From NCBI GenBank assembly GCA_907163375.1, contig CAJQUW010000872.1, positions 248,001 to 312,000 on the forward strand: 64,000 bases of DNA. The letters run 5' to 3'. A model generated the notes under the pieces. That model was not told the DNA's origin. It saw nothing but the letters and a program-made list of their open reading frames with translations, and ran no database searches. A program made the position numbers and the translations under genes. Source of the DNA: Prostheceraeus crozeri (Eukaryota > Platyhelminthes > Polycladida > Euryleptidae). Below are positions 1 through 44,200 of this stretch, piece after piece (the first letter of the stretch is position 1; each line of letters begins with the position of its first letter).

Positions 1-2
1 TT

Positions 3-683
3 CGAAAATCGATTCAAAAGGAGCAAAGTACAAAACGGCCCATCATTCATCATTTAGTTCATTCCCATCCTAAAGATGGGAAAGAAAATGTATTGGCCAG
101 TGGTGCGGATATGCAGCATGAAACGGGGCAACATGCACTTCCCTTCACACCTACGGAAAAGTATCATATCTACAACACGTATAATGTATTTGCCTATCAT
201 AGTTTGGTGGATTTGATGGAGCTGTATGGGAATATTCTCCATGATTTTGAAGTGAAACAGGAACGGTTGGCAACGTTAAGAAGGAGGGTGAAAGAATTGA
301 AACCCACTGCAGGAACTGACAATCTTGACGAGATCGTTCGTGAACGAGATAAGGTGAATGCAGAAGTGACTGTGTTGACGTCGGATCTTTGTCAATTAAC
401 CAAGGAGAACAAACTGTTATTTTATGTGTCTAGACCTGAATCGTTTTATTACAAGAATTTAGAGAGTGATAAGACGTGGAGATCTATCGTCGCCACAGGT
501 TATTATTCGTTGGAAACCTATTTGAATACCATCTTCCCCACCTCCATGACATGGACCATTACATCCATGTCCTATCATTATGAACTGACCATCGATTGCA
601 TGGACGATATGGAAATCAAGATGGACCGACAATCTAAAGCCTATGAGATTTTCAAAGCAGAACAAGTGGCTACCTACGTGTGA
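3..683 (+). CDS. Penton-like/minor structural protein module with coiled coil, 5' partial
   Basis: The frame is open from the first bases of the window, so the true start lies upstream; no ATG occurs before the coding region is well under way. The visible 226 residues include a charged heptad-like stretch (about 270-420 nt) that looks like a coiled coil. A segment near 500-530 nt (GYYSLETYL) follows. The same kind of aromatic-Y-S/T-L/E segment plus a beta-rich tail recurs in the next reading frames at about 962, 1,829 and 2,742. This suggests a protein built from, or related to, the penton-like module of Polintons. It ends at a TGA (681-683), and the same frame stays open immediately beyond it with no nearby ATG. 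The stop is therefore either a real gene end or a CGA-to-TGA mutation inside one longer gene. I recognise the family relation only by pattern, not the exact function. Confidence 0.55.
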   Translation, partial: RKSIQKEQSTKRPIIHHLVHSHPKDGKENVLASGADMQHETGQHALPFTPTEKYHIYNTYNVFAYHSLVDLMELYGNILHDFEVKQERLATLRRRVKELKPTAGTDNLDEIVRERDKVNAEVTVLTSDLCQLTKENKLLFYVSRPESFYYKNLESDKTWRSIVATGYYSLETYLNTIFPTSMTWTITSMSYHYELTIDCMDDMEIKMDRQSKAYEIFKAEQVATYV

Positions 684-1871
684 GACGAATGGATCTTGGA
701 AATCCCCCTCAGCACGATTCATGTTCCCTCCTTTATCCTTCAGAAACAAACCATGGAATTGGACACTCTCTTTGAAAAGAAGAGTGTCGCCTATGCATTG
801 AGTGGGACCCATGTCTTGCTTCGAAACGGAAAACCGACACAACAGTATAAGACCGAGGATAAGAAGCATTCCAATATTCTCAACATCAAACATGGTGACT
901 ATTTTGAGATTTTTCATACCCTATCTCATCTCCCTAGTCCATTACGTCTCAATTTATCCACGAAATACTATACCCTCCAATCCTTTGTGCAAGCTTTCAA
1001 TCAAGCCATCCCCCTGCCTGATATGGTGTGGGTGACGTATACAACAGTGGGCGTCTTTCACGTGCTTCACTTTAAAATCGCGGAAGGGTATTGGTTGAAA
1101 ATCAATCCCCCACAACTCTGGCAACACATGTTGAATCATAGTCATGAATATGGTATGTTCACCTATCATGAACAAACCTGTATACACTCGGAAACGCCGG
1201 AACATTGTTCTGCAAGTTACCGTCGGTATCAACAACGTCCAAAACATGTCACCCATGGGATGACATTACACATCTATGGTTTACCGGAATATACCTTTGA
1301 TTATGCCAAAGGATGGGACCACACCCTCGACACCCTCTTCCCATGGAAAGGGAAGGAATTGGATCGCTTGTTTCAGAAATCCTATTTCCCTTATGCTTAC
1401 GAATCGAAAGAGCTGTTGGCCAATACGTGTTTACAATCCTACTTGTTTGGTGATAGACTCTCTGATAAGACATTGTATTCACCCGCTGTCGCGTATCAAG
1501 AAGGATCCACCCTGAAAGTCTGCAAAGATAGATTGACTTCTTTTATTGGATGGTTCAGTGATGATATGCAAAAGCTCATGACGACCATGATGGAACGCTG
1601 GCAAGAAAACATGTTTTATCTAGTGGATGGTATGGTGTTGGGAGTGGATGTGGGAAAACAAGATATTCAATCGGTGATGGTGAATACACAACCCACACCT
1701 CGCCTTTTTCTTCATCTCTATAGCAAGACCATGAAACCGTTGCACATCTATGATCACATGATTCGGCAAGGTTACATCAACCCCACCTGGACATTTCTAC
1801 CTCGTTTCATCGTGTCCGCATTCCCAAAGAGAGTTATACCTTGGAAGGACTCTTTTCTAAACTCCAAGTGA
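684..1871 (+). pseudogene. Penton-like/minor capsid protein, N-terminal and middle part (continues the frame past a TGA)
   Basis: About 395 open codons lie in the same frame as the preceding coding region and directly follow its TGA. The first in-frame ATG is at 753, so either translation starts there or the region was once joined to the upstream part. A Polinton-style module is visible near residues 85-150 (KYYTLQSFVQAFNQ followed by a beta-rich tract). The central 200 residues are not recognised. The frame ends at a TGA at 1,869-1,871. The typical C-terminal jelly-roll half of the family lies in another frame that overlaps this end, which points to a frameshift between about 1,790 and 1,870. 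The order (module, middle, C-terminal half) resembles a penton-base-sized protein of 500 or more residues, but assignment as penton is an inference. Confidence 0.55.
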
Positions 1872-2329
1872 ATTTACAGGCGTGGACGGATGTATCCCTC
1901 TCTCTCTCGAAAGATCATTATTTGACGGTGAAAACCGCGGAACATGCCTTTATTGATTTTGGAGAAGTGTTGAGTTATCGTATAGGTCTACCCCAATCCT
2001 ATTATGGACCCAATACACAGATGACAACACTCTCTCCCCTCAGCATGACTTCCAATTCCTTCAACATTATCGTCTATTGTAATATTGTGGCCGAAAGTAT
2101 TGTGGAAGGACAACGTGAACAAATCTTGAAAATTCACCCCATTGAAGAGAAACAACGTTTGGGGGAAATGGTGTCGTATGAAGTGTCCAATATTGATTAT
2201 TACCCCATTTTTACATCAGCTATTGATGAGATTGAAATTCAGTTGCGTGGTGATGATGGCGAATTTATTCCGATTCATGAAGGACGATCCTATTTCAAAC
2301 TCCATCTCCGCCGTAAGGAGACTAGGTAA
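1811..2329 (+). pseudogene. Penton-like/minor capsid protein, C-terminal jelly-roll half (frameshifted)
   Basis: This open frame has no ATG before 2,021, yet recognisable coding similarity starts at about 1,811 (SYTLEGLF module). It therefore looks like the continuation of the preceding gene after a frameshift rather than a separate gene. The C-terminal third has the hallmark of the Polinton minor-capsid/penton-like family: a hydrophobic strand (NIIVYCNIV), an acidic turn (DEIEIQLRGDDGE), then GRSYFKLHLRR at the very end. The same order and spacing occur at the end of the next gene, so the two C-terminal domains are paralogous. In Polintons this domain is thought to form a single jelly roll at the capsid vertices. 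That role is family knowledge and is not proven here. Confidence 0.6.
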
Positions 2330-2353
2330 ATGGGGACAGAGTGACACTCAACC

Positions 2354-3244
2354 ATGCATGAGGAAACGATTCACTTGTTGAGTAATGCTCAGCCCAATTT
2401 GTTTCCTCAAAATAGAGCCAATCATTTCAAAAATCGCTTGGTTCCTTCCATCCCCATGGTCCATGGGGATCAGTGGGAAGCCGGTATCTCCGTCGTCAAC
2501 TTCATCAATACCCTTCAGACAATACCCGTGGATGTCAGCTTTAGTGTGGGGACATTGAAGGATCATCCTGAGACGATTCCGACCGTCTTTACGTCCTCTA
2601 TCCTTCCCATCAAAACGGATTCACCGCGAGGAGAGCAAGGCAAACAGGGAGAGCAAGGCAAACAAGACAAACAAGACAAGCAAGGCAATCAAGGCAAACA
2701 GGGAGAGCAAGGCATGTTTACGCGCTTCAACATTCCACGCGGTATTTATTCGGAGAAGACGTTTATGCAGTGTTTGAATCAGAATCGACAGCATGCACAC
2801 AATTTCCACTTTTCTATCACTACATTGGCGCCTCATGTCCATGTTGTCTCAGTGGTCGTACCCACACACTACAGTATGAAACTCCGTCCTTTGCTCAAAG
2901 ACATTCTTGGGTTTAAAACACACTTACTCACTTCCTCACAGCAAGCGACTGCCCCTTTGAATTTGAATGCCTTCACCTACAATATTCTTCTGTATTGTAA
3001 TATTGTATGCTATCATTATGTAGGAGGTATGAAAACAAACTGTATGTGTGTGATTCCCTACACGGGGAAAGATTATGGAGATAGTATTCATCATGAATTC
3101 CAGAATGTCACCTATCTGCCTGCGAAAAGTCAACATGTGCAAGATATTGAAATCAAACTCATGTCGGATGATGGACATCCCATTCGTATGACAGACGGAC
3201 GGTCCTATGTAAAAATGCATCTTCGACGTCGCGCAATTAAGTAA
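2354..3244 (+). CDS. Penton-like/minor capsid protein with collagen-like insert
   Basis: An intact 296-codon gene starts at an ATG 24 nt after the previous stop. Residues about 20-60 carry the family's N-terminal pattern (a short strand, then QWEAGISVVNF, matching the W-E-V/A-G motif typical of Polinton minor capsid proteins). Residues about 93-121 (2,630-2,716) are a low-complexity run of G-K-Q, G-E-Q and D-K-Q triplets resembling collagen, with an underlying 9-nt DNA repeat. The IYSEKTFMQ module follows. The C-terminus has NILLYCNIV, then DIEIKLMSDDG and GRSYVKMHLRR, paralogous to the domain ending at 2,329. The triplet run looks inserted between two folded parts and could be a flexible or trimerising stalk. 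It is probably a vertex or minor capsid component, assigned by pattern. Confidence 0.65.
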   Translation: MHEETIHLLSNAQPNLFPQNRANHFKNRLVPSIPMVHGDQWEAGISVVNFINTLQTIPVDVSFSVGTLKDHPETIPTVFTSSILPIKTDSPRGEQGKQGEQGKQDKQDKQGNQGKQGEQGMFTRFNIPRGIYSEKTFMQCLNQNRQHAHNFHFSITTLAPHVHVVSVVVPTHYSMKLRPLLKDILGFKTHLLTSSQQATAPLNLNAFTYNILLYCNIVCYHYVGGMKTNCMCVIPYTGKDYGDSIHHEFQNVTYLPAKSQHVQDIEIKLMSDDGHPIRMTDGRSYVKMHLRRRAIK

Positions 3245-3247
3245 TTG
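3237..3247 (+). promoter_or_regulatory. Recurring gene-junction motif (candidate late promoter)
   Basis: TTAAGTAATTG overlaps the end of the penton-like gene and sits 26 nt before the next ATG (3,274). A near copy, TTAAGTATTG, occurs at 5,324-5,333, 25 nt before an ATG at 5,359. A shorter TTAAG match lies at 3,918-3,922 before the capsid ATG. The recurrence at plus-strand gene junctions suggests an AT-rich promoter element for the structural genes. This is an inference from position and similarity only. Confidence 0.3.
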
Positions 3248-3273
3248 TCTTTTCCCAAGCGCATCAAGACACG

Positions 3274-3921
3274 ATGACGAATCTATTTTTAATCCGTAAC
3301 CGAACAAATTCCTCTGGACGATTGTTTGGAAGAGGTTCATTTATGCAACGAGGTGGATGGAATAAAGTGATTGGACAGAAAACACGCATGATTAGACCCC
3401 GTGTCACTGGTGTCAAGAAATCATCCATCCGTCTGCCCAAATCACTCAAAAAGAGTGTTCCCAGAAAAACGTTTCGAAAACCCTCTCGAAAAACACCTCG
3501 ACAACCCTCGCGAAAACCCTCTCGAAAAGCATCGCGAAAACCTTCGCAAAAAGGACTTGTACATACGGTACAGAAAACGTTGGGAAAATCGTCACGTACG
3601 ACAGAGTTTCTCAATTCTGCGAAACAAGCTGTCACGGATGCTGTCAGCTCTACCGCACAAGAAGGAGTTGATCGTCTCAAAAAGGGTGTGAAAGCGCTCG
3701 CCAAACGCACCTTACAGACTGCTCCCGAACGTGTTGTAGAAGCTATTCAAAATAAAGTGAGTCGGAAACGCGTCTTCACGGATGAAGAAGGAGATAGGGT
3801 GGAAGCACCTGCTCCTAAACGTCGCCGTGGTCATGTGAACATTGCCCATCATACGAAATGGGGGAAAGGAAGTTTGATGGGGCGTTATCGCGGAGGTGCT
3901 AAACAACGCATGCTCTTTTAA
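3274..3921 (+). CDS. Highly basic virion core-like protein
   Basis: An intact 215-residue protein starts at an ATG 29 nt after the previous stop. Residues about 47-93 are a run of short K/R-P-S-R-K repeats, protamine-like. The C-terminus is also basic (KRRRGH, then WGKGSLMGRYRGGA), and a short amphipathic middle part follows the repeat. The gene sits directly before the major capsid gene. Its position and composition match the basic, DNA-condensing or capsid-lining proteins of adenoviruses and adintoviruses. I infer it packages the genome inside the particle. The repeat could have expanded by slippage. No enzyme motif is visible, and the exact counterpart among known core proteins cannot be stated from composition alone. 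Confidence 0.6.
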   Translation: MTNLFLIRNRTNSSGRLFGRGSFMQRGGWNKVIGQKTRMIRPRVTGVKKSSIRLPKSLKKSVPRKTFRKPSRKTPRQPSRKPSRKASRKPSQKGLVHTVQKTLGKSSRTTEFLNSAKQAVTDAVSSTAQEGVDRLKKGVKALAKRTLQTAPERVVEAIQNKVSRKRVFTDEEGDRVEAPAPKRRRGHVNIAHHTKWGKGSLMGRYRGGAKQRMLF

Positions 3922-3957
3922 GAACTAAGCAATCTTAGGAGATCCGTCCCATCAAGC

Positions 3958-5327
3958 ATGGCGGAAACACCTGCCTTATTGGATGCGCGTTACGATGTAT
4001 TCCAGAGTGATAAAGTCGATGTCTGGAGTAATTCTCAGCATACTAGCGTTCTGACGCCAGTCAATGGATTGGAAAATCCCGGTACCATTCAATTCACAGT
4101 CCCTCGACTAGCCATTCATTGGATGCATGTATGCAATGCCTATTTTCGCGTGGAAGTACAACTCATGAAACATGATTCGCCTAAAGGAGCAGACGTGCCA
4201 TGTGAGTTGTCAAACAAGGCGATTATTATCAACAATACGGCCCACTCCCTCTTTTCCGACATTACTATCCGCTTGAATAGAACGCACCATTGAAGGAGGC
4301 AATGACTTGTATTATTTGAGAGCTTACCTTAGCAATCTTTTACAATACACCAATGATGTGAAGAATACACACATGGTCACACAAGGATTTACTGTTCCTC
4401 AAGTGATGTATGACACAGAGTTTGATGCAGCGACTAAGACGGTAAAGTCTAAGGCAGTAGAGTTTACAGATAAAGAGAATGCACTCAATCAAGCCATTCT
4501 CAAAACAATGGTCAGACCACAAATTTAAACGTACCTTTGACTTTCCCCTGAAATGTAATTTGTTCCAACAAGTGATTGCTCTGCCCCCAGGCATGCAACT
4601 GGATCTCATTTTCACCTTGAATAAACCGGAATATGCCATTTATGATATGGCACATCCTGCAGGGACGACTTCTACAAAGTACAGGTTCAAAATCACCTCT
4701 TTCCAATTGTATATGCCCATGCCCACACCGAATGCAGAACTGCAATTGAAAACTGCGAATCGACGCAAGACAGAAGCCATTTATTATCGCTACAATGGCA
4801 TGACCGTCCAACGACAAACGATTGAACGAGGAATACAAAAGAAGACGTTTTCCAATGTGGCTGCTCTATTGAGTCCTAAACTCATCTTTTTCGCTGTTGT
4901 TCCCAGTAACTCTTGGTTTGATCCAGGAAGTCGTAAACTCTAATTTGGAAGGCATGGACTCTCTCAAGTCACTATGACCACCAATGGAGCCATCATGACA
5001 GGAGGCACCATCAATTGCAAAGATGATGTGATTGCCTACAGTCAATTCAATCGTGCGATTCAAGTCTATAACACGAATGAATCATGTGGTATTGATTTGG
5101 AGAGTTTTACCAAATACTGTTACTTTATCGCCTTTGACTGTACCTTGGATAAACAAATCGATAGTGTTCAACCCACCAATACACGTCAATATGGACTGGA
5201 ATTGCAATTTGAGAATACGACCACGCAAAATATGGATTTATTAATGCTTGTCATTCATGACGAACAATTCTCCGTCACACCGGAGAATGCTGTCATCTCC
5301 AGTGCGTATATCCCACCCGCTATTTAA
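3958..5327 (+). pseudogene. Double-jelly-roll major capsid protein, broken
   Basis: The coding potential is in four consecutive pieces: 3,958-4,293 (from an ATG), 4,307-4,528, 4,479-4,943 and 4,974-5,327. Together they cover about 456 codons with the pattern of the Polinton/adintovirus major capsid protein. The N-terminal part has an I-Q-F-T-V strand and the conserved AHSLFSDI segment. The second piece has YYLRAYLSNLLQY, and the third has LPPGMQLDLIF and a long beta-rich stretch. The fourth ends in a strand-rich C-terminus (YGLELQFENTT). Breaks are a frameshift between about 4,270 and 4,300, another near 4,510-4,528, and an in-frame TAA at 4,941-4,943. The capsid shell gene of this copy therefore cannot make a full protein. 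Intact copies elsewhere in the genome would be expected to lack all three lesions. Confidence 0.85.
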
Positions 5328-5446
5328 GTATTGTTGCGCATTGACATCCTCATAAGATATGGTGAAGGAGCCCGAGTATCACGTTCGTCCTATCGCTGGG
5401 ACACCTCTTTATCAACATCGTCTCATTAAAGCTCAGCGTTGGCTGA

Positions 5447-6079
5447 ATGGGAGAATGGTTAAGCAACACGGAAATAAAAGGAATCATGCAGGGTATGAAT
5501 CAATTACAAGAGAAACATTTACTCAATGCCTGCATATGCGAAGATGATTTTCTCTGTGCTATTCAGTGTAGTTGTCAAACGTTTGCTCATCGCCTCCTCC
5601 AATCTTCTTACGTTCCCTTCCAAGGTGTGTTTCCTGCTGATCTACTTCCTGCTCATTCCCCGGAATCAAAGACACTTATTGTCAATAGTGATCGCTCTCA
5701 TCAACCTGGCAAGCATTGGTTGGCCTTTTATCAAAATGCGGATCAACGCGTATGCGAATTCTTTGACTCTTATGGACTCACTCCATCTCACTATCCACAT
5801 GTTACCGAATGGTTATCGACAACACCTTATCCTCTAGACTATCGTCGCCCTCTGCGTATACAAGGACCTAAAGCCTATTGTGGTGCTTACTGTATTTACT
5901 TTTTAAACCATCGCCCTTTTAACACGTCTATGGATAAAACACTGACCTTCTTTCGAACATTGGATGCTCACGAGAACGATCAAGAACTCATTCAAACCTA
6001 CTTGTCCTTCAATGATAAAATTGTCTATTCCTATTTGTATTCTACATTATCCCATGTTTTGAAGTCAATAAAGAAATGA
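5447..6079 (+). CDS. Adenain-type maturation cysteine protease
   Basis: An intact 210-residue protein, close to the size of adenovirus protease and its Polinton relatives (C5/Ulp1-like clan). The catalytic set is visible in order: His90 in GKHWLAF, Asp107 in FFDSYG, Gln139 in IQGPKAYCG and the nucleophile Cys145 in the same motif. In the family this enzyme cleaves capsid and core precursors during particle maturation. The ATG at 5,447 is chosen because the frame upstream is closed by a TGA at 5,444-5,446, and because GEWLSNTEIKGIMQ is the usual start of the domain. A short frame from an ATG at 5,359 to 5,547 overlaps it in another phase. That frame could be a small gene or a displaced leader and is not supported by any motif. 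The gene follows the capsid gene, as is common in the family. Confidence 0.9.
   Translation: MGEWLSNTEIKGIMQGMNQLQEKHLLNACICEDDFLCAIQCSCQTFAHRLLQSSYVPFQGVFPADLLPAHSPESKTLIVNSDRSHQPGKHWLAFYQNADQRVCEFFDSYGLTPSHYPHVTEWLSTTPYPLDYRRPLRIQGPKAYCGAYCIYFLNHRPFNTSMDKTLTFFRTLDAHENDQELIQTYLSFNDKIVYSYLYSTLSHVLKSIKK
6067..6072 (+). terminator. Poly(A) signal of the plus-strand structural block
   Basis: AATAAA lies just inside the end of the protease gene, five bases before its TGA. It would end the rightward transcripts in the short gap between the two convergent gene blocks. Confidence 0.5.
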
Positions 6080-6099
6080 ATCATGTCAATGATTGTATT

Positions 6100-6105
6100 T
6101 TTATT
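6100..6105 (-). terminator. Poly(A) signal of the minus-strand block
   Basis: TTTATT on the plus strand (AATAAA on the minus strand) lies about 100 bases past the RING gene stop. It faces the opposite way to the signal at 6,067, as expected for convergent transcription units. Confidence 0.5.
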
Positions 6106-6163
6106 TCAGACAGAGGTTAATACTACAAGATTTTGTACAAGGTTCAGTCACTCGTGATAGCAC

Positions 6164-6186
6164 ACTATACACTATACACTATACAC
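6164..6186. repeat. ACTATAC short tandem repeat
   Basis: A little over three copies of the 7-base unit ACTATAC lie in the convergent intergenic gap between the protease and RING genes. The remaining gap sequence (6,080-6,205) shows only the two poly(A) signals. Confidence 0.7.
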
Positions 6187-6205
6187 AGAGCTTTTCCGTG
6201 ATTCA

Positions 6206-6709
6206 TCATGCACGATATGCAGTAACTGTTGAAGCTATGTCTTGATCACAAAGGGGACAAGATGACGTTTCAAAGGGATTATAACATGTAGAACACATAA
6301 CACTATGAGAACATGGTAAAAAGAGAAGGGATCGTTCCTGTTTAAAACATGTAACACAGTTCCGTTCACATATTAATTTAAATGTCTCTTCTTCCAATTT
6401 CTTTCTAAAGTCACTTTTATGGGGAGAGTTATCTGACACATCCGTTGCAAATCTCACTTTTTTCACTTTTTTCACTCCAGATTGCGCCAATGTCATTGTA
6501 TTGCACTGTAGCAGGGAGAAATCCTCTATCCACCTACGATCCAAATGGTGATTCATAGCATGCTCATCGAGATCCATGAGTCGATCCACTAATTCACCAG
6601 CAGTGATCGTTTCATTGAGATGTGTTACAGTTTCTATAGCTTTGAATGAATATCCCAGGTCTCTTGCGACAACCCACGACGTTGGGATACTAGTTGCTGT
6701 CCGATTCAT
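6206..6709 (-). CDS. UBA + RING-finger ubiquitin-ligase-like protein
   Basis: A 167-residue protein counted from the ATG at 6,709. The frame is open further upstream without another ATG, and this start overlaps the end of the TBP-like gene by only 20 nt. Residues about 12-47 resemble a UBA-type three-helix domain (ARDLGYSFKAIETV, then ELVDRLMDL). A basic linker follows. The C-terminus is a C3HC4 RING of the IAP/Mdm2 type with ligands Cys118, Cys121, Cys133, His135, Cys139, Cys142, Cys151 and Cys154. RING domains of this type recruit E2 enzymes and act as ubiquitin ligases, and with a UBA they resemble the C-terminal half of IAP proteins. No BIR domain is present. A role in modulating host cell death or degrading a host factor is inference. 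Confidence 0.8.
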   Translation of the reverse strand: MNRTATSIPTSWVVARDLGYSFKAIETVTHLNETITAGELVDRLMDLDEHAMNHHLDRRWIEDFSLLQCNTMTLAQSGVKKVKKVRFATDVSDNSPHKSDFRKKLEEETFKLICERNCVTCFKQERSLLFLPCSHSVMCSTCYNPFETSSCPLCDQDIASTVTAYRA

Positions 6710-7265
6710 TGAGGGAATCTCCTTCGAATAGGGATTTGAGAATGTCTTCCACCAACGATTCCGCTTCTGCAATCGATAAAGCACCCGTCACAATCACACT
6801 TCCGTTGGAAAAGAAGGAACAGTGTAAATTACCTTTGCGTATTAACGTTCCGGGAAACAGCTCGCGCTCGTTGGAAATCACTGATGTCGATGGTAACTGT
6901 TGAATGGTTTGCATGCGGTCTTTTGTATAGTTCCATTGACATTGAACGGTGCAGGATTTTGTGATTGGGTCGCTCACGTCCAATCCGTAGGGGGCGAGTA
7001 ATTGGCGCATCTCTTTACAAATACGATCGTAGGTTTCCAGAGAGTGGTTGCCCAAAATTTGGATACACCCCCGTGGAAAAATCTGTACAGCAACCGAAGA
7101 GTTCCATTTCCAATAGACTCGACAAGGGCGTGATGCTCGGTATGTGGCCAGAGGGAGTTGCGGTAACAATGTCTGCAGTGGTATTGCGGAGGATGCTCTG
7201 AGCTCCACCATGCGGTTGCAGATCCTTGACATTTTTGAGAGTGGGGTGTAGATACCCTTCTTCAT
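6690..7265 (-). CDS. TATA-binding protein (TBP) homologue
   Basis: A 191-residue intact protein with the two-fold repeated TBP core. Repeat 1 spans about residues 14-95 and has VQIFPRGCIQILG at the position of TBP's I-F-S-S-G-K strand. Repeat 2 spans about 103-183 and has ERELFPGTLIR and SFFSNGSVIVTGA, very close to the family's E-L-F-P-G-L-I-Y and F-V-S-G-K-x-V-x-T-G-A motifs. The aromatic residues that kink TATA DNA are kept as Tyr51, Phe63, Phe137 and Phe152. There is almost no extra N- or C-terminal tail. TBP nucleates transcription initiation at TATA boxes, and a virus-encoded copy could direct polymerase to the element's own promoters. The ATG at 7,265 lies inside the polymerase frame, so the first 84 codons overlap that gene. 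TBP homologues are known in some large DNA viruses. I do not know it as a standard Polinton gene. Confidence 0.85.
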   Translation of the reverse strand: MKKGIYTPLSKMSRICNRMVELRASSAIPLQTLLPQLPLATYRASRPCRVYWKWNSSVAVQIFPRGCIQILGNHSLETYDRICKEMRQLLAPYGLDVSDPITKSCTVQCQWNYTKDRMQTIQQLPSTSVISNERELFPGTLIRKGNLHCSFFSNGSVIVTGALSIAEAESLVEDILKSLFEGDSLNESDSN

Positions 7266-10200
7266 ATAGGCGATGGTTACCGTATGGAAGGCTCTGATTG
7301 GGTAAATACCAACACCGCTTGTCCTCCCAGATACTTAAGGCCTTCTTCACTTGCGTCACTGTTCTCATCTCGTGGTGTTGGGATTGGAGGAGGGTTTGTG
7401 ACACTGTGGTAATGGAATGTTTTTCAAATGCGTCCACATAATTCTGATGTTTCACTTGTCGCTTCTTGGCTTGACATACCCCCTTCATGCGACAGTCGTG
7501 GATTTCTTCCTCATTGCCTTTGAGGACAATGTAAGAGTACATCTTGGCACTCAAACATACAAACTCCTTCACCCTATCCCCCACACACTCATCCTTGAAA
7601 CATCCCAAACGATTCGCATTCTCGGTACGTCTCTCTGGATGACTCACGGGATAATTTGAGGTATCGAGTACGCCTTTCGCCTCCGTATCAATAAAATTTC
7701 GGATGTTGTCAAACGAACGCAGCACTTCTTCACGTGTATACCGGCTGCGGACTTTGAGGAAGAAGGAGTCTGTGTCCCCACCAATGAGTTCCACTGAGGT
7801 GCACGTCTTGTTGGCTTTCCACTGGTCAAACAGCTTGTACATAATAATCTTGCTGTTGTCCAGGATGCATTGCCCGATATAAATGGGCTTGTTCAAGTCT
7901 ACCTTGGTCTTGCGCACATTCACCACCACGGCTTTGTCGCTGATGTTGAAGAAAGATCGGCAAAAGGGATGACGTGTCCATTTGCTAAATAAATTCGGTG
8001 ATCGTACAAAATAGTGCTTCCCATATTTCCGCACATTCTCCATCGTCTTGCCGTACAGTGCGTTCACCATCAACTTGTGGAGATTGCGGCGCATTTTCGT
8101 TGTTGCCTTGGCGCGTTCTTGCGTATGGTATTGAACATAGGGGTGAATATACGGTTCTTGGTTGAAGGAGATCCCGTAATGAACCTTGGTGATATGTAAA
8201 CCCTTCTCCACATAATACTTGAGAGCAGCGATATGTACCACATACTCTTTGCGATTTTCCTGCGTCATCATTAACTTGTTGGCTGAGTGAAAGGGTCGGT
8301 TCCCGTTCAACTCTTGCCATAGCTCTTGCATATAGGGAGACATGTCCTCCCATTTCGCCGTCCCGCGGTAAGGAGCCAATGGTAAATCTTCCGTGGCATC
8401 TTGGACGTATGGGGGATACTCCAAATCGACGCACAGTACATGATCCGTGGTGCCATTGACATTGTATCGTCTCACCCATTCGTCGTTGATGTCCACCAAG
8501 ACCTCCGGTCGTACCCAGGCAAAACAATCCTTCGACAAAGGTCACATCATGGCCGCACCGTATAAATTGTTCACATCGATATAAAACAGGTGAGTACCTT
8601 CTTCTGCTTGCGCGCGGTGCTGATTCACAAATGTCATCCCTCCACGAATCCCTGCTTCAAACACGCGGTACATATCCACGTCATGCAATTTCTCCAACTT
8701 GACCTGTGTCTTTTTAAAGAAAAATGAATAGGTCAAGCCAGGTGTGCCGAAATAGTGGATGGGGTCCAATGCAGACACGTTGCGTATTTCACTTCGAAAG
8801 TGTTCGAAGATGTCTGCAAGCAAGGCTACATCCACTGTCAAATAATAGTGGATATAATCTTCAAACGTGCTGCACCCCGCCTCTGTCCACGCCTTTTGTG
8901 CCACAGCATACTCATCCTCTTCCAACTCCTTCTCACTCAAATCATTGTAAAATGCTTCCTTCGGAGGCAATTGAGTCTCGTGGATACGATCCCAGCAGTC
9001 AAAATATGTATAGGGAAAATATCCTTTCCGAATAGATGTGTGATTGCAATTCGGATAGACGTTGCTCAATATGTGATTTGAGTGAGGAAAGTCGCTGATG
9101 GTCGTTGACAAATTGTTTAGAGAGTCTTTCAAAAACTGACATGAATCGATGAATCGGAGTTTATATATGTTATTGGATGGCATGGGAAGAAAGATGGTCA
9201 CTCCCAACGTCTTGTCTCCTGACACATAAATGGGATCGATCCTATACTTGTGATCCAACTTGGTAAACCCTTGTACAATCACCTGGTGACTGTCATATCC
9301 CTTCCAATTGTGAAACAATATGTTTAATGTGGTCCGGGATTGACGTCGTCGCAGGTTACATGCATTGCACAGGGTTTGTAGATATTTGCCCGTGATATGA
9401 TCGTGGTCTCGCACCTTTGTCGTAGGCCCATTCTTTTCACCTTGCTTCTGGGGTTTCACATCACATCCGCACATGTTACATTGAGCTGTCTGTTCATAGT
9501 CCCGCATATCAGCCTCCGTCAGTTTCATGTTACGCTTCGTCTCTTCCATGTGATGAAACATCGACATGCTCACCTGTCTGATGTGTGCAATAAAGGCTGG
9601 AATGCACTCATCCCCCTTATGGATCACCACCGATTCTTTCATGTCCAGCGCCGGATGCCACACCACATAGGATCCCATATACGCTGCCGTATGCTTCTTG
9701 GACACGGTATCAATCATGCTCTCAATGTCCGCATACATCACAGCGAGGGGTTGAGTGGTTTTCGCGTGGTCGATAAATTCGTGCGGTTTCGTATCTTCCG
9801 GGGTCGTTTCCATCTGAAAAAATCCTCCATCGCATTTGGCTTGATGTTCCAGACGTTCTTTGTGCGCCATGTCCTTTGTCTTTCCAAACTTTATACCCTT
9901 CTCGTAGAAATTGAATCGTAAACTACATAACTCGCATGTTTCAAAACGTTTCACTTGCGTTTGGCTCATGTTCCGATACCACATGCGAGCACATATCTGA
10001 AAATCCGTCACGGGAAGAAAATGACCAGACTGATCCTCCATATCGTACCGCGTCACCATCACCAGATGAACGATGCGTGTGTTCTCCTTCACAGCTTGAC
10101 GGACCGGGTATAATTGGCCCACAAATCCTTTACTGTCATGTACGTGGATACGAAGAATGATATTGTTCTTCTTTTCGAACTCCTGAATATCCCGTGTATT

Positions 10201-11196
10201 CATCAACCCCTCTGACGTCATCATGGAAAAGTCTAGATGATAATACTGGTTCAAATTCAACTTGCGCACTGCAGGAAGTCGATTCTGATAAATGTTATAG
10301 GATGTCTTGGTGCGGGAATCAACACGTCGAGGAATGCGATTGTCTTGGTAGGCAAGTGCATAGAGGACACTGTCTTGAAAACAATGTGATGTATACGTGT
10401 TGTGATCAAAGACACATATGCCTTTACAGAGCTTGATATCTCGGTGGATAGGAATCGGTGCGCCCATGCGAAAATTAGGGAAGGAACTTGTTTGAACCAG
10501 TAACTCCAACACTTCCTTCACCGCAAATCCTGATCCGTCTTCTTGATAGTCTTCAATAAATTCTTCAAACTTTGACACAATGTCACGGAACCATGTATCA
10601 AAGTTACGTGCTTGGACGCCTTCGTGAATGTATGAGGGTGTGGTGATGTCTCTCACTTCCTCTTCGCCCGTCGACATATCCATCTTGGCAAACCTGAGTC
10701 TCATACTCACAAACACTTTCACATCCTCGTGGGGGTGTTGCTGCACAATGACACGATACAAGTCCGCATACATTGCATTTAAATATACCTTCCATTCATT
10801 CGTGGCTTGATGAGGGGTAAATCGATAATTATATCCGCGACCGTCCATGATACGTTCTTCTTCCACAGCTGCACCGCCCTCTTGCATAAACTCAAACAGG
10901 TAGGGACACAAATGTTCATCCCATCCTTCCGCTTCAGCATTCACCACTGTATCGCAGTAGTGACATCGTCCCACACACGCATGCTTATGGTACGCCTCTA
11001 CGTCGAAACTTCCGTCGCAATCCAAACACAGCAAGTCATTGTCATCACCATAATTAAACGCGCGGCAATCGTGTTCGTTTCCATACCATTTACAGCATGT
11101 CCAACAATAGTTGCGACCCGTCTCCGCTGCTCCATGGGCAATACAGTCTTGAAAGCGAGAGAAGGACTGACAGCAGAATTCACACGTGTACTGCAT
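7015..11196 (-). pseudogene. Protein-primed family B DNA polymerase, one in-frame TGA
   Basis: The frame runs 11,196 to 7,015 (about 1,390 codons), interrupted only by TGA at 8,544-8,542. In order it shows Cys/His zinc-finger pairs (residues 1-110) and an OTU/peptidase-like CFQDSVLYALAY...HFLPVTDF region (about 270-400). Next come exonuclease I YADIES (about 489), an HNH-like DHDHITGKY...CNAC knot (about 602), exonuclease II FHNWKGYD and exonuclease III YLTVDVALLADIF. Polymerase motif A is YIDVNNLYG (Asp874). Past the stop come motif B (KLMVNALYGKTMENVRK) and motif C GGDTDS, then KMYS. This is the standard layout of Polinton polymerases, which replicate linear genomes from a protein primer. 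The TGA separates motif A from B and C, so the copy is inactive unless the stop is read through. The last 250 nt overlap the TBP-like gene, where the polymerase frame loses recognisable similarity. Confidence 0.92.
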
Positions 11197-11234
11197 GGTT
11201 AGAATGAGAATGAATTTCTCTGACAGCGCCTTCC

Positions 11235-11242
11235 TTATATAC
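11235..11242 (-). promoter_or_regulatory. TATA box of the polymerase gene
   Basis: The minus strand reads GTATATAAGG about 40 nt upstream of the polymerase ATG (11,196), the right distance for a start site leaving a leader of roughly 10 nt. An AP-1-like TGACTCA (11,250-11,256) and a CACGTG palindrome (11,260-11,265) lie just upstream. These are sequence matches only. The element's own TBP homologue makes a canonical TATA box here notable. Confidence 0.55.
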
Positions 11243-11262
11243 CCTGCTGTGACTCATCACAC

Positions 11263-11388
11263 GTGCTCGGCGCCGCGTGCTCCGATTGGTGCTCTGTGCT
11301 CTTACCCCAAGTGCGCCGATGCGTGGGCGTGTGCTCCGTTTCCTTTCCTCTTCGCAACCCGTGCTCTGATGCGTAGGCGTGTGCTCCG
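11263..11388. repeat. Cluster of GTGCTC repeats upstream of the polymerase
   Basis: GTGCTC occurs seven times in about 125 bp (11,263, 11,277, 11,289, 11,296, 11,331, 11,361, 11,381). Two 28-bp blocks at 11,311-11,338 and 11,361-11,388 are direct repeats exactly 50 bp apart with three differences. The cluster could be an upstream regulatory array of the polymerase promoter or part of the element's terminal region. The window gives no second end to compare. Confidence 0.65.
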
Positions 11389-11399
11389 ATAAAAGAGCA

Positions 11400-12237
11400 G
11401 GGCATGTACTTAAGTGCAAAGTGTGTGGAAAGGGGCTAGACTGTCCTACTTGTGCACATATACTTTTCGTTGCAAGCAACTTTTGTCGAGGAGTTGAATT
11501 TTCCCACGAGTATGCTACACGCACCGGAACGGTGTTTAAGTGTAAAGATCACCATGAAGAAGAGTGCAAAGGTAGAAGGAAGTAGGACCTGGGCGCAACG
11601 AGCTGCTGCGGGTGCACCATCTTGACAGATACTGAGCTTAGTAGGCCGAAGTTTAAGTGACGGCTGGCGCCGATGTCTCTGGTCCTTTTGGGTGCAGCAT
11701 TTGCTGTTTCACATAAACCAGCGATTTCGTTTATCAAGCGATTTTATTTATAGCAGATTTCTTGCATTTATTGATTACTCAATCACTCATAAGTCACGTA
11801 TGTCATCTGTAGCTACTTTTAGGAATTATCTACATTATTTTGTCACGACTTCAAATAAATTCATTTTCAATTGTCAACGCATTACATAGTTTCTTAACGC
11901 ACCTTGCGAATTTTGTCCAAGTATTGCGCCAAGAATTGTATGCACTGATTCATGTGATCAGCATGTAGGATTAACTCTAGATTGCCCATCTCTACACATG
12001 TCAAAAGAATTCTGTGGCTATGTTCATCAAAATAAATTGTTTCAACTAATTTTGTGCAATAGCTAATTTAATACATTGGTAAGATGGTTTACATTGCTTC
12101 ATCGTGTGTTTCAAATTTCAATTAAAATAAAATGATGAATTTCCTTTCAACGCCCATAAAAGGTATCTATTTGATTTAAAGTATGGAATTAGCTCTGAGC
12201 ATAAAAAAGTTTGTAGAATTAAGGAGGGTATTATCGA
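11400..12237. other. Right boundary zone of the viral element and start of host-like DNA
   Basis: Composition shifts from element-like to AT-rich host-like between about 11.4 and 11.75 kb. A Cys-rich open frame (11,370-11,585, plus strand) has no ATG and is not supported as a gene. No terminal repeat or target duplication could be identified. From 11.75 to 12.24 kb I see no gene. Confidence 0.5.
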
Positions 12238-22005: not shown

Positions 22006-23727
22006 ATGAAGAACATGATTTTGCTCACAGAATATTCAATGGACATTCTACGTTCACAATTGGATTCTATTATGATCAACGACGACGTAAATATATTAAT
22101 CGGGATAAGAGGAAGGTTGAAAATCACTGACGATGAATGGAAGCTATTTCTAGGCACTGAGAACGCTTCCATGGAGGCGTTATCAAAAACACATGATTTA
22201 AGTGGCTTGAGCAACTGCCCTGAGAATCTTGCGGTAAAGCCGCTATCTTCACCACTGTTTATGGCCGCTGCATGTGGAGCGATTCAATGTTTGAGATATA
22301 TTATGCGCTTGGTTAATGTCACTGAAGTAAAGCCTAATCAGGACAACGTACTTCATGCAATTATTTACGGCAAGCAGCTCAATTTATTGAGCGATGAAAC
22401 TTTGCACAAAATCTTAAAAATTCTGGAGTCCGATCTGACAAAAGACAATTTTCGTCATCTACATTATCACATTGGCAATCAAGGCTTGCGTCCTGCTGAG
22501 TTGGCTATCTTTGTCGGCGAGTTTTATGTTGGTCAGTTTATGCTTTATCATTCTGTTCTCCCTGTAATAAAGAAAGTCAGGTGTGGTACAAAAACATATA
22601 TCACGTTGAACGTTGATTGCTATGACATATTCCATCTCAATTCTCGTCTCATGGTATCTCCCCTGATGTTAGTTATTGCAAATCCTTCTGTCAAAAATTT
22701 GCATAGAATGAAACACAGTGGAGTGTTTAAATCACAATCACTTATGAGAGAGTGGATGGAAGTATTGTACAAACGAAATCGTTATTTTTTACTAAGTACA
22801 TTTTGCGTCTTCTTTTTGCTTGTGATGATACTACTTTTCTGTAGGTTTCAGTATACTTTTAGTCACATCAAAAGGAAATGTAGCAACATAACTAATTACA
22901 AGCAGTCACTTACGGAGAATGTGTTAAAGTTTGGAGAAATTTTCGTGCTAATTAGCAATATTTTGCTAGCACTCTATTGCAATGCTGTCAGTTTATTCGG
23001 TTGCATCAAGCATTACAAGTCAAATTGTGGTCTCAAATCACCTATTAACTACTTTCAATCGCCAATATGGCCGACTTTATTGAATTTTAACATTCCATCA
23101 ATTGGAATTTTGGCTTGCAGTATATTGTGGATGACTTTGCTACTACGCCCATTAGCATTTTGCGATAATGTTCATACATGGCTATCAATGATATACTTCT
23201 TATTGATTCTGCTATTGACTTATACTGCATTGTATTCTGGTGTTTTGTTGCCATTTTTCGGCACATTTCTCTTCAATTTCTTTCTTTTGCTAAAACAATG
23301 GGTTATTTTTATAGGGCTTTATATTTTTGCGATTTTCGTTTTTGCCCATTGCACAGCAAATGCAAACCAAGCCCTGAATTTATTGCCTGATCTTCAGGAA
23401 CAGCTTTATGGAAGTAGGATGAAGTCGTTTTATACGACTTTTCTAATGACACTGAGTATTATAGGGATTCCAAGAGAAGAACTTAATCTCAACATAATTT
23501 TGAATGGTGTTACTTGCATAATCATCATACCAATTATGCTTTTTAATTACATAATTGGAACAGCTACTTCAGAGCTCGCAAATATTTCTGATGTAGCTGA
23601 AGAAGCCATTTGTATACACAAGATGGTTTCAGTAATATGGGGGGAGATTACATTTGCACATATTCACGAACGCCGGCGCAGCACACACATGACATCTGTA
23701 ACTATATGTTTAAATGATATATCGTGA
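22006..23727 (+). CDS. Intronless ankyrin/six-transmembrane TRP-like ion channel
   Basis: A single uninterrupted 573-codon frame starts at an ATG. The N-terminal 200 residues contain ankyrin-like pieces (SPLFMAAACGAIQCLRYIM, then DNVLHAIIYGKQ, then RPAELAIFVGEF). Six hydrophobic segments follow at about residues 258-280, 307-331, 363-386, 390-411, 421-449 and 498-520. A pore-loop-like stretch (FYTTFLMTLSIIGI, 473-488) lies before the last. After S6, NYIIGTATSELANI and an amphipathic helix sit where TRP channels carry the TRP helix. This is the architecture of TRPV/TRPA-type cation channels, though with fewer ankyrin repeats than usual. Ligand and ion selectivity cannot be told. The absence of introns suggests a single-exon gene family or an expressed retrocopy. 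It looks intact. Confidence 0.75.
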   Translation: MKNMILLTEYSMDILRSQLDSIMINDDVNILIGIRGRLKITDDEWKLFLGTENASMEALSKTHDLSGLSNCPENLAVKPLSSPLFMAAACGAIQCLRYIMRLVNVTEVKPNQDNVLHAIIYGKQLNLLSDETLHKILKILESDLTKDNFRHLHYHIGNQGLRPAELAIFVGEFYVGQFMLYHSVLPVIKKVRCGTKTYITLNVDCYDIFHLNSRLMVSPLMLVIANPSVKNLHRMKHSGVFKSQSLMREWMEVLYKRNRYFLLSTFCVFFLLVMILLFCRFQYTFSHIKRKCSNITNYKQSLTENVLKFGEIFVLISNILLALYCNAVSLFGCIKHYKSNCGLKSPINYFQSPIWPTLLNFNIPSIGILACSILWMTLLLRPLAFCDNVHTWLSMIYFLLILLLTYTALYSGVLLPFFGTFLFNFFLLLKQWVIFIGLYIFAIFVFAHCTANANQALNLLPDLQEQLYGSRMKSFYTTFLMTLSIIGIPREELNLNIILNGVTCIIIIPIMLFNYIIGTATSELANISDVAEEAICIHKMVSVIWGEITFAHIHERRRSTHMTSVTICLNDIS

Positions 23728-41156: not shown

Positions 41157-41222
41157 GTAAGTTTTCCTCTTTAATGCTACCATTTGAGATTCTTCAATGC
41201 AGGACTTATGTCGTTATGTCGC

Positions 41223-41295
41223 CCTTCGATAGCTCAGTTGGTAGAGCGTTGGCATAGAATGCCAGAGGTCGGTGGTTCAATTCCACCAAGGCGCG
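41223..41295 (+). tRNA. tRNA-like sequence, probable pseudogene (anticodon position AGA)
   Basis: It has a perfect D-arm (TAGCTCAGTTGGTAGAGC), a five-pair anticodon stem around the loop ATAGAAT, and a T-arm GGTGG-TTCAATT-CCACC. The loop places AGA at the anticodon, but there is no long variable arm as serine tRNAs need. The 5' and 3' acceptor strands (CCTTCGA and AAGGCGC) do not pair. The 5' part resembles metazoan tRNA-Tyr. Best read as a chimeric or decayed tRNA gene, or the head of a SINE. Confidence 0.65.
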
Positions 41296-44200
41296 CAGTG
41301 ATTTTCCGCCTGTTGCATTATCATTGCAGCTACCTTTGCCTACTGTGTGAACTAAATTCGTCTGTTGAATTTCGATGAAAGTTGAAATATTTGTAGCCAT
41401 TGATATGTACGCATTACGAGTATAATACAATTTAGCTATTTCGCCGACTTTTGTAAAGCTTGTTTTCTGCTGACATTCAAAATTTCATTCAATGAAATGA
41501 TTACCGAATATTGATTGTGCATTTCAGTAAGCCTGTCTCGCTCTCTACTTAGACCGTCAAGGCTAGACGGAGCAAGAGAATGTTCTGTTTCTTTGAGCGG
41601 TAATATTTGTGGGTGGAAGTTATGAGTTTTCCTTCCCAATGACTTTTATTTGCGGTTAGATTTGTGCCCTTTATTCATTATCGCTAGTCAATGAAATTAA
41701 TCACTGAGTAATGAATAAAATATTTGATGAACATTATTGAAAGCATGATAATCTATCGTTGTAATGAAATAGATTCATATCAAGGAGCATGGAAGCAATT
41801 AAAATAGATCAATTATGGTTTACATTCTAAGCTCATATTTCAAAAAGAATAAATACAAATCTTTGAGTTTAGCTGTACACCAAATGATAAAGAAGTTGAG
41901 ATTGAAATGCTTCACTATGTGAAACATAATGTAACGTATTATAGAATTAGAAGGAGACAACTTAAAGAAAGTCTGCATCAAAGTTTGAAGAAAAACTCTT
42001 GATAGCATAAATTGGCTCAAATGTTGCTACTCGTGGATGGTTTACATCATGTCGCCAGATCTGAATAAATTTTGAATGTAGTCTTAGTGAAATAATGTTA
42101 AATTATTAAAATCTTAAATCATCTTATGAAAATAGATCATCTGATGAGCAGAAATATTTCGAATACTTTCACGACTTTCTTCAGGATATACCCTGCATAT
42201 GCTAATAAATTCATTATACTAGTAGTGTGATTCATGAAAGAGATTTATTTAAAAGAAATTGAAATTATTATGATACAAATACATGCATTTTAGTTTCAAG
42301 TATGTTTTCACAACAAAAATTCACCACAACATATTGTGTTATATTCATGCCATCATCATGCTGAAGTGCAGAGTTTATTTCTTGCATACATTACATTAAA
42401 ATAGTGATAATAAAAGTGATACTATTCATATGGAGAATAGTAGCCATAATTTTTCATTCTAAATTAAGTTTTTATCATTGGATATTGATGCTGATGTCAG
42501 AATTTTTGTCATTACAAGTTTATCAGCCACAACGACCATTCTGCTAGACTAATCATGCGATTAAATAGTTCACAATGAAAGAATTTGGCGGGCAGTGCTA
42601 AAACAGGAATGCGACTTGTACCCATTCGGTGAAGACACTTAGCAATATATTGTGTTTGAAGCAATTTTCACTGCTGATCGTTTTAAAGAGGAAGATTATC
42701 GACAAATTAGCTATAATGATCAAACTGCATGAAATCTAAAACAATAGCATATCATTTTATAGGCTTGCGCGAGCGGTTTCGTGGTCTCTATTCTTATTTT
42801 GCTATGATCAAAGTAGAGAAATGTTCAGTTACAATTATTTAAACTTTGCTTACATCACCGTGTAGAACAATTCACGAGAGCAATTAATTCGAAACCTTAT
42901 GAGCACTGCTGTTCAGGCTCACAACTGACAGGGGAAAGTGCTTCAAACTCCGCAGATTCTCATGTTAGTTAGAACAATTATGATGGAGAATATGAAGATA
43001 AAGTAGTTCAACAAATAAACAGTCTGCTTACAATTGATGAAGTGCTTCGAGATGAACTATAACTATAACTACGAACTATAACCGGACCTCTTAATAATTA
43101 AGATTGTATAGCTTGATGTAAAGTAATCTGGGATTCCACTCATTAATAAAACATATAATAAAATCATGCCGTTTATATATGTCTTCGCTAGTGTGGTTAT
43201 AATTACTATGTGCTGTTTCGTGATTTAACTTCATTCACTGAAATACATGAACCATTGATTGTCCTCTCCTTCCAGCATTTCATTCATAGTTTTCATCTTT
43301 TTATGACACATCGACATCATTTGTAAATATTCCATGCTATTCGCGCATCGTAATAACGCAAGTGGATCTACATGTATGTATTCTCATTATTTATGTATAT
43401 CATCAGTGCCCTCATTGACTTGTTAATTTCATTGTTATCATTTTATCACCCCAGAAACGTGTTTTCAATTTGAGAATAAACGTTCTGATAATCTGATATA
43501 CTATGTCTAGCATTTATTTATTTATTTAATTCATTCTGGCTCTAGTAGATCAACTGGAAGCTCTTCATCCGTCTCGAAACATGCTTTCGTTGCCAGTCAT
43601 CTATTACTGGACGCACATTTTCTTCGTATTCTTCATTACCGATATAGTTTAGTGCTTTGCAAGTGAGAGGGGTGACAAGCGATGACAAATGAAAGCATTT
43701 TTAAGTGTTCTATAGCTAGGACGTATGTATACACGGTAAGAATAATCGAATGAAATTATACGATGCATCATGTAGTTCAAGCAGAATTCATGTGATGTGG
43801 GTTTGGAAAATCATGTTTTAAAATCACGTTGTAAAACGTGGTTTCTTAATTTTTTTCTGAATTTCTTCCAATCTGTCATATAAAATGAACTTGAACTGCA
43901 AGTTTTCCCGGGTAAAATGATTTCCATGTCTTTCAACTTCAAGATAAAGCACATTTATGCAATTTCAAGGAAAGTCAATCTTCTTCAATAGACGTCATAG
44001 ATTTCAGTGTCAGATCGCACATATTCTTGATATTTACACAACATCGTGATAATGCATGCAAATTAGTGAATAGGAAAACAAGTTCAAGGATCAATTATTT
44101 CATGGAAGTTCATGATGTTTCTCAGTTATAGGAAATGGTTGCATTAAGTTGAACTTGAATACCTAACACGAACTTGTTTTGATTAACAAAGTTGCTTTAA

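Follow-up and report, generated by a model that had tools for sequence, protein, structure and literature searches.

A TATA-binding protein gene beside the DNA polymerase gene of Polinton-type elements in a flatworm genome

A Polinton-type element in the genome of the flatworm Prostheceraeus crozeri was found to encode a member of the TATA-binding protein (TBP) family next to its DNA polymerase (PolB). Positions 1 to ~11450 of the analysed stretch of 64,000 nucleotides (the window) hold the right part of this Polinton, which is cut off by the window start. The encoded protein, P0001, is probably a bona fide, anciently diverged TBP of a Polinton lineage that would serve promoters of the element via TFIIB and RNA polymerase II (Pol II) of the host. 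This reading, built on sequence comparison and a structural model, draws on family membership, predicted fold, linkage to PolB, conservation, occurrence in several Polinton families and the lack of a recognisable TFIIB of the element. The Polinton TBP is well supported as a gene; its mechanism is one that we infer.

Gene content and copies of the element

The original prediction that a Polinton-type element encodes its own TBP was borne out by the surrounding genes: PolB, an adenain-like protease and, in the adjoining 10 kb of the element to the left of the window portion (L039), an integrase with rve and chromodomain matches (Table 1). PolB, the protease and the rve integrase are shared with Polintons/Mavericks and adintoviruses, as may be a putative ATPase-like ORF in L039, whose AAA matches were all below cut-off. 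The DNA_pol_B_2 match suggests a PolB of the protein-primed type, priming itself being predicted; the N-terminal piece alone showed no Pfam DNA polymerase match, only weak ones below cut-off. A 187-codon ORF (L039:5389-5952), weakly similar to adenoviral terminal protein in a match below cut-off (E 0.017), is a possible candidate for the protein primer. The putative capsid protein gave no meaningful Pfam or PDB sequence match and a poor AF2 model (pLDDT 48.6). Its frame is broken in the window copy (pieces 3958-4293, 4479-4943 and 4974-5327) and is a single open frame of 455 codons in the copy L040; together with the in-frame stop in PolB, the broken frame marks the window copy as damaged. The ORF with a collagen-like repeat is likewise longer in L040 (320 versus 296 codons). 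This ORF, the 162-codon ORF preceding it and L039:8484-9107 are related and lie close together, apparently as duplicates of one gene. PHROGs and NCBIfam profile searches added little, and the right-end sequence was sought in L039 and not found there; the left end of the element likewise did not turn up. Elsewhere, the window contains a plus-strand frame that is open over 573 codons and has no Pfam match (22006-23727), a tRNA-Ser (aga) gene (41221-41296) and a reverse transcriptase fragment (55648-56286, RVT_1 E 5.5e-10).

Table 1. Coordinates of element features in the window and in the adjoining sequence L039.
Feature	Position	Strand	Basis or remark
ORF, 162 codons	1841..2329	+	related to ORF 2354-3244
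Motif CTAGGTAA	2322..2329	+	before ORF 2354
ORF with collagen-like repeat (2626-2714)	2354..3244	+	Pfam scan, comparison of copies
Motif TTAAGTAA	3237..3244	+	before ORF 3274
Basic ORF, 215 codons	3274..3921	+	sequence
Motif CTAAGCAA	3925..3932	+	before putative capsid ORF 3958
Putative major capsid protein	3958..5327	+	size and position only
Adenain-like cysteine protease	5447..6079	+	Peptidase_C5, 21.4 bits vs cut-off 21.3, borderline
Motif TTAAGCAA	5459..5466	+	35 nt before protease ATG 5495; otherwise inside gene
RING-finger protein	6206..6709	-	zf-C3HC4_3, E 3.8e-11; start overlaps TBP end
Element TBP (P0001)	6690..7265	-	open frame, 191 codons
PolB, C-terminal piece	7015..8538	-	DNA_pol_B_2, E 1.4e-7
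PolB, N-terminal piece	8542..11196	-	in-frame stop divides pieces in window copy
TATATAA box	11235..11241	-	45 nt before PolB ATG
Right end of element	11420..11450	.	copies stop resembling window beyond ~11450
Integrase, rve and chromodomain	L039:7221-8471		rve E 6e-11, Chromo E 7.6e-8
YTARGYAA, first bases	L039: 854, 3623, 8451		about 35 nt before gene starts

A search of the genome (2.05 Gb, 14,165 contigs) with P0001 yielded at least 150 matches. Since the best 150 places were 98-100% identical and 149 of them were free of stop codons, the frame is conserved beyond chance. Linkage of TBP to PolB was also upheld: among the matches listed, a TBP lay within 1.4 kb at 79 of the best 85 PolB places, and the remaining six may have a lower-ranking TBP or none. 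At 63 of these 85 places, the PolB frame stays open for 1,400 codons or more. In all nine copies of ~10 kb, the order protease, RING, TBP, PolB was the same.

Searching the genome with the Pfam profile PF00352 also gave at least 150 matches, headed by the host gene and sharing no place with the P0001 search. PolB and/or protease matches were found beside the TBP at all 13 loci of other families (L004-L008 and L049-L056, representing 11 places), one of which, L050, also carries an integrase with rve and chromodomain. The TBPs of three of these families matched the Pfam profile with E values of 1e-21 to 1e-23. The pairs L005/L056, L006/L049, L010/L040 and L009/window represent the same places and are not independent. 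At some of these loci, a sequence ~40-45 nt upstream of the TBP start lies inside an overlapping ORF (TATAAAAGG at L049:4456 and L050:4187; TATAGAAGG at L052:4360).

Among nine gene pieces compared over 40 rows (38 places, 27 distinct sequences), TBP had the lowest pN/pS (0.076), a value that, like the codon-position counts, is biased low because the copies were chosen by TBP similarity. The C-terminal piece of PolB (0.117) and the protease (0.166) followed, and the remaining pieces ranged from 0.22 to 0.41; the RING gene, which sits between protease and TBP in the nine copies, was less constrained (0.32). The tail of PolB and the TBP frame share 251 nt (7015-7265). Within 7018-7265, 24 of 30 changes among nine TBP-selected copies affected third positions of TBP codons, equivalent to first positions in PolB; variation here follows the TBP frame. 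In the three other families, pN/pS was ~0.5 over only 3-4 rows each, and the variation looks largely like decay of older copies.

The TBP core, its relatives and its altered N-terminal lobe

The minus-strand frame proved open over 191 codons, and the two-repeat TBP core proposed for it was recovered as two stretches matching PF00352 (45.2 bits, cut-off 22.9). Structure prediction returned a two-lobe saddle, so that the profile search and the fold prediction suggested along with the original prediction both came out in its favour. The E-L-F-P-G and F-x-x-G-x-x-x-x-T-G-A signatures were located at residues 135-139 and 152-162, respectively. P0001 has, as claimed, almost no sequence beyond the core, the first strand of the saddle starting at residue 14 of 191. 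Several homologues start at the equivalent of residue 12, P0002 at that of residue 19 and P0005 earlier; the true start of P0001 may thus be residue 12 (7232) or residue 19 (7211). By profile and fold P0001 is a member of the TBP family, yet not a canonical TBP. It was kept in the family despite a lost phenylalanine because TRF2 and the TBP of Giardia have phenylalanine losses too.

Protein searches identified 8 and then 48 database relatives, on ENA, Logan and JGI contigs of 0.7 to 21 kb; as the label rests on similarity, these are presumably Polinton genes. Scans of IMG/VR yielded no confirmed relative, with 62 pattern matches for A1, 78 for the cellular TBP alignment A4, 12 for A5 and 7 for A6, and no match for the PolB piece. 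Alignment A3 combined the window TBP with 45 of the 48 relatives, after removal of P0002 (near-identical) and of P0033 and P0035 (short). A first tree of 52 rows comprised 10 animal TBPs, 15 archaeal TBPs and 27 Polinton-type rows, the latter being the window TBP, 23 relatives taken from the 45 in A3 and three other families of the same genome. A branch with 100/100 support set the Polinton-type rows apart from all the others. In a second tree, from which the long-branched L112 and P0034 were omitted, the host TBP and TBPL1-like sequences were added as single exons. These exons grouped with animal TBPs (100/99), and the Polinton-type rows again lay beyond a 100/100 branch.

Recent capture or retrocopying of the host TBP, unconnected to any function in the element, is accordingly contradicted by both trees and is highly improbable. 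Evidence in its support was not found, and it is further opposed by the occurrence of the gene in four families of one genome and in the 48 database relatives. For the host canonical TBP exon, the best named matches were nemertean and mollusc TBPs. Neither a grouping of Polinton-type TBPs with TBPL1 (p-AU 0.116) nor one of Polinton-type and animal TBPs with TBPL1 (p-AU 0.107) was rejected, and the program warned of long branches; for these reasons no deep placement, with animal TBP, TBPL1 or any other group, was drawn from the trees, which cover cellular (animal and archaeal) and Polinton-type TBPs.

In the numbering of Arabidopsis TBP, used in passages of PMC10005294, DNA is kinked by F57, F74, F148 and F165, and TFIIB is contacted by E144 and E146. 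It had been claimed that all four kinking positions of P0001 hold aromatic residues. This holds for Phe63, Phe137 and Phe152 and fails for Tyr51, since the first kink position is occupied by Pro47. HMMER against 2z8u, hhalign against cellular TBPs and a 63-row MAFFT alignment agreed in placing Pro47 opposite F57, and Tyr51 lies four residues past that site, at a position held by Ile or Val in the cellular rows. Among the 46 rows of A3, proline filled the first kink position in 43 of the 44 rows with a residue there, and a conserved threonine of the first lobe was replaced by leucine in 45. F63, F137, F152 and T160 were each invariant (46/46). The acids of the C-terminal stirrup that face TFIIB were kept in all 46 rows: the equivalent of E144 (E133) was Glu in 40 and Asp in 6, and that of E146 (E135) was Glu throughout. 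All 11 TBP ORFs of other families in the same genome (ten places) likewise had the proline and both acids. By these alignments, the N-terminal lobe has lost one kinking phenylalanine and a conserved threonine. Because one lobe is changed at residues important for DNA kinking, DNA binding by P0001 should not be assumed.

Putative promoter sequences of the element

The canonical TATA box attributed to PolB was verified: TATATAA lies at -45, and no difference was seen among 81 bases compared (11234-11242, nine copies). Upstream regions of 18 element genes, with 19 start positions, were surveyed for further boxes. A TATAAA- or TATATAA-like box at -25 to -60 was present only at PolB and at the gene L039:4444 (TATAAAC, -57), and TATAWAD within 200 nt upstream only at PolB (-45) and a 187-codon ORF (-145). 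The bare sequence TATAT occurred at -29 of the ATPase-like gene, at -36 of TBP (if its start is residue 12) and at -140 of the protease. The idea that the TBP favours TATA promoters of its own element was weakened by this scarcity of TATA-like boxes among the 18 genes, by the losses of a kinking phenylalanine and a threonine in the N-terminal lobe and by a different motif conserved at six genes.

This motif, YTARGYAA, occurs nine times in L039 and window positions 1-11451, always on the plus strand, which is the strand of the genes concerned, and never on the minus strand. Six of the nine copies lie 31-36 nt upstream of the first ATG of ORFs of at least 100 codons; one more precedes an internal ATG of the protease, which is possibly the true start of that gene, and two lie elsewhere. 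YTARGYAA came first among comparable degenerate 8-mers in the regions upstream of the 19 gene starts (6 of 19) in a ranking that made no use of position, and among 100 shuffles none attained six genes and 12 attained five. It was defined after inspection, partly with L056 in view, and it frequently shares bases with the stop codon of the preceding gene, a bias that accounts at most for its TAR part. The base following GYAA in a splice donor is preferably G. A splice-donor reading was judged unlikely, as G follows in none of the nine copies.

Comparison of 8-9 copies revealed no change among 272 bases of the four window motifs, whereas 73 of 901 bases differed between motif and ATG. In the L056/L004 family, the motif precedes a 514-codon ORF by 34 nt and a 461-codon ORF by 38 nt, these two being among seven TARGYAA matches in L056. 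In the TBP-bearing loci L049, L050, L051, L052 and L054, no TARGYAA was found 20-45 nt before an ORF start. From its sequence and placement, YTARGYAA likely serves some of the genes as a core-promoter element; a tie to the element TBP is conjecture.

Proposed role and comparison with known systems

A search of the whole 2.05 Gb genome with the TFIIB profile PF00382 gave 7 candidates and 4 matches on 2 contigs, as would be expected of host TFIIB and one relative, in contrast to at least 300 non-overlapping TBP-family places in the same genome. A high-copy element with its own TFIIB would give many more such matches; a recognisable element TFIIB is thus not seen in this genome, nor was a TFIIB homologue recognisable among the Pfam-scanned ORFs of the window and L039. 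A TFIIB diverged beyond the reach of the profile would escape such a search. Since the stirrup acids are kept and the element has no recognisable TFIIB, host TFIIB would be used. In the proposed mechanism, the element TBP would bind the core promoters of the element and dock host TFIIB by way of the acids conserved in its C-terminal stirrup; the docked TFIIB would then bring host Pol II to the element genes. Unlike a plain copy of host TBP, the altered protein probably has a target sequence different from the standard TATA box, because its N-terminal lobe lacks the kinking phenylalanine and the conserved threonine.

One possible, though doubtful, alternative is a late-promoter switch, in which the TBP reads YTARGYAA and turns on the capsid-module genes late, with PolB transcribed early via host TBP and TATATAA. 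It would parallel the herpesvirus TBP mimic, which acts at TATT promoters, and is consistent with the strand-bound spacing of YTARGYAA, the shuffles, the invariance of the motif between copies and its recurrence in the L056/L004 family. The link from TBP to motif is, however, not direct: the motif was defined post hoc, often lies over a stop codon, is absent before ORF starts in five TBP-bearing loci and stands before only 6 of 19 starts, with three of nine copies not before a first ATG, and the capsid label of the genes concerned is by position only. A full two-stage programme, with early genes under host TBP and TATATAA and capsid genes under the element TBP, host TFIIB and Pol II at YTARGYAA, is offered as a tentative and doubtful model.

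Retention of the TFIIB-contact acids beside an altered N-terminal lobe would also suit a protein that sequesters host TFIIB or occupies TBP sites, thereby lowering host transcription. Such a decoy would have no need of the DNA-facing equivalents Phe63, Phe137, Phe152 and Thr160, which are invariant in all 46 rows, and host shut-off is therefore unlikely. A role in replication or packaging, with the saddle bending DNA at the element ends or origin instead of at promoters, could draw on the position of the TBP gene up against PolB on the minus strand and on the herpesvirus TBP mimic, for which a binding element in the origin is described in PMC6541308; the conserved TFIIB-contact acids would not be needed there, and this role is improbable. 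Action at element promoters through host TFIIB remains the preferred reading.

Virus-encoded TBPs occur in nucleocytoviruses (Heterosigma akashiwo virus, Terrestrivirus, Mimiviridae and others), which provided the best structural matches of P0001 among viral models. Passages of PMC7221094 describe a TFIIB-like gene in almost all TBP-bearing viruses except poxviruses, which also carry a TBP, and varying TFIIB-facing acids in viral TBPs, with ~40% conservation at one contact position. In contrast to nucleocytovirus TBPs, the Polinton TBP keeps these acids and is not accompanied by a recognisable TFIIB gene. Mirusviruses likewise have a recurrent viral TBP, present in 59% of genomes according to PMC10132985, but they differ in their large genomes and capsid lineage; in putative mirus-type elements of Cymbomonas, TBP is sporadic in the portion of PMC10675990 cited here.

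In beta- and gammaherpesviruses, a virus protein stands in the place of TBP (KSHV ORF24, EBV BcRF1, HCMV UL87); in parts of PMC7498053 and PMC6541308, this mimic is reported to replace TBP at late promoters and to use host Pol II. The mimic binds Pol II through a separate N-terminal domain and has five partner proteins, whereas P0001 is a bare TBP core in which the early start of the saddle leaves no such extra domain, and the fold match of UL87 to P0001 was weak (rank 50, E 4.1e-3). Metazoan TBPL1/TRF2, in passages of PMC10005294 and PMC3142196, is said to have lost a DNA-intercalating phenylalanine and to interact with TFIIB without binding TATA. It resembles the Polinton TBP in phenylalanine loss, but is a host gene that grouped with animal TBPs. 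The TBP of Giardia, with three of four kinking phenylalanines changed and a preference for single-stranded DNA (PMC12209930), is similarly divergent, but cellular.

TATA, TBP and TFIID were absent from the main texts of PMC11071296, PMC11071308 and PMC10120064, and TATA and TBP from that of PMC10675110; PMC12220804 has TATA only in a name in its reference list. In the passages retrieved from the openly licensed literature, a set without the original adintovirus paper, the matches listed included no report of a Polinton TBP; co-mentions of Polintons and TATA-binding protein concerned mirus-type elements or mirusviruses (PMC10675990, PMC10132985) or were unrelated (PMC7786948). Term searches met no study of how Polintons read their genes.

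The Polinton TBP is a naturally occurring TBP with one DNA-binding lobe changed and the TFIIB-docking acids kept, and it makes the reading of genes by Polintons testable. If true, the two-stage programme would be comparable to a herpesvirus late preinitiation complex pared down to a single protein. With a general transcription factor among the conserved genes of a virus-like transposon, control of promoter recognition would extend beyond giant viruses, mirusviruses and herpesviruses.
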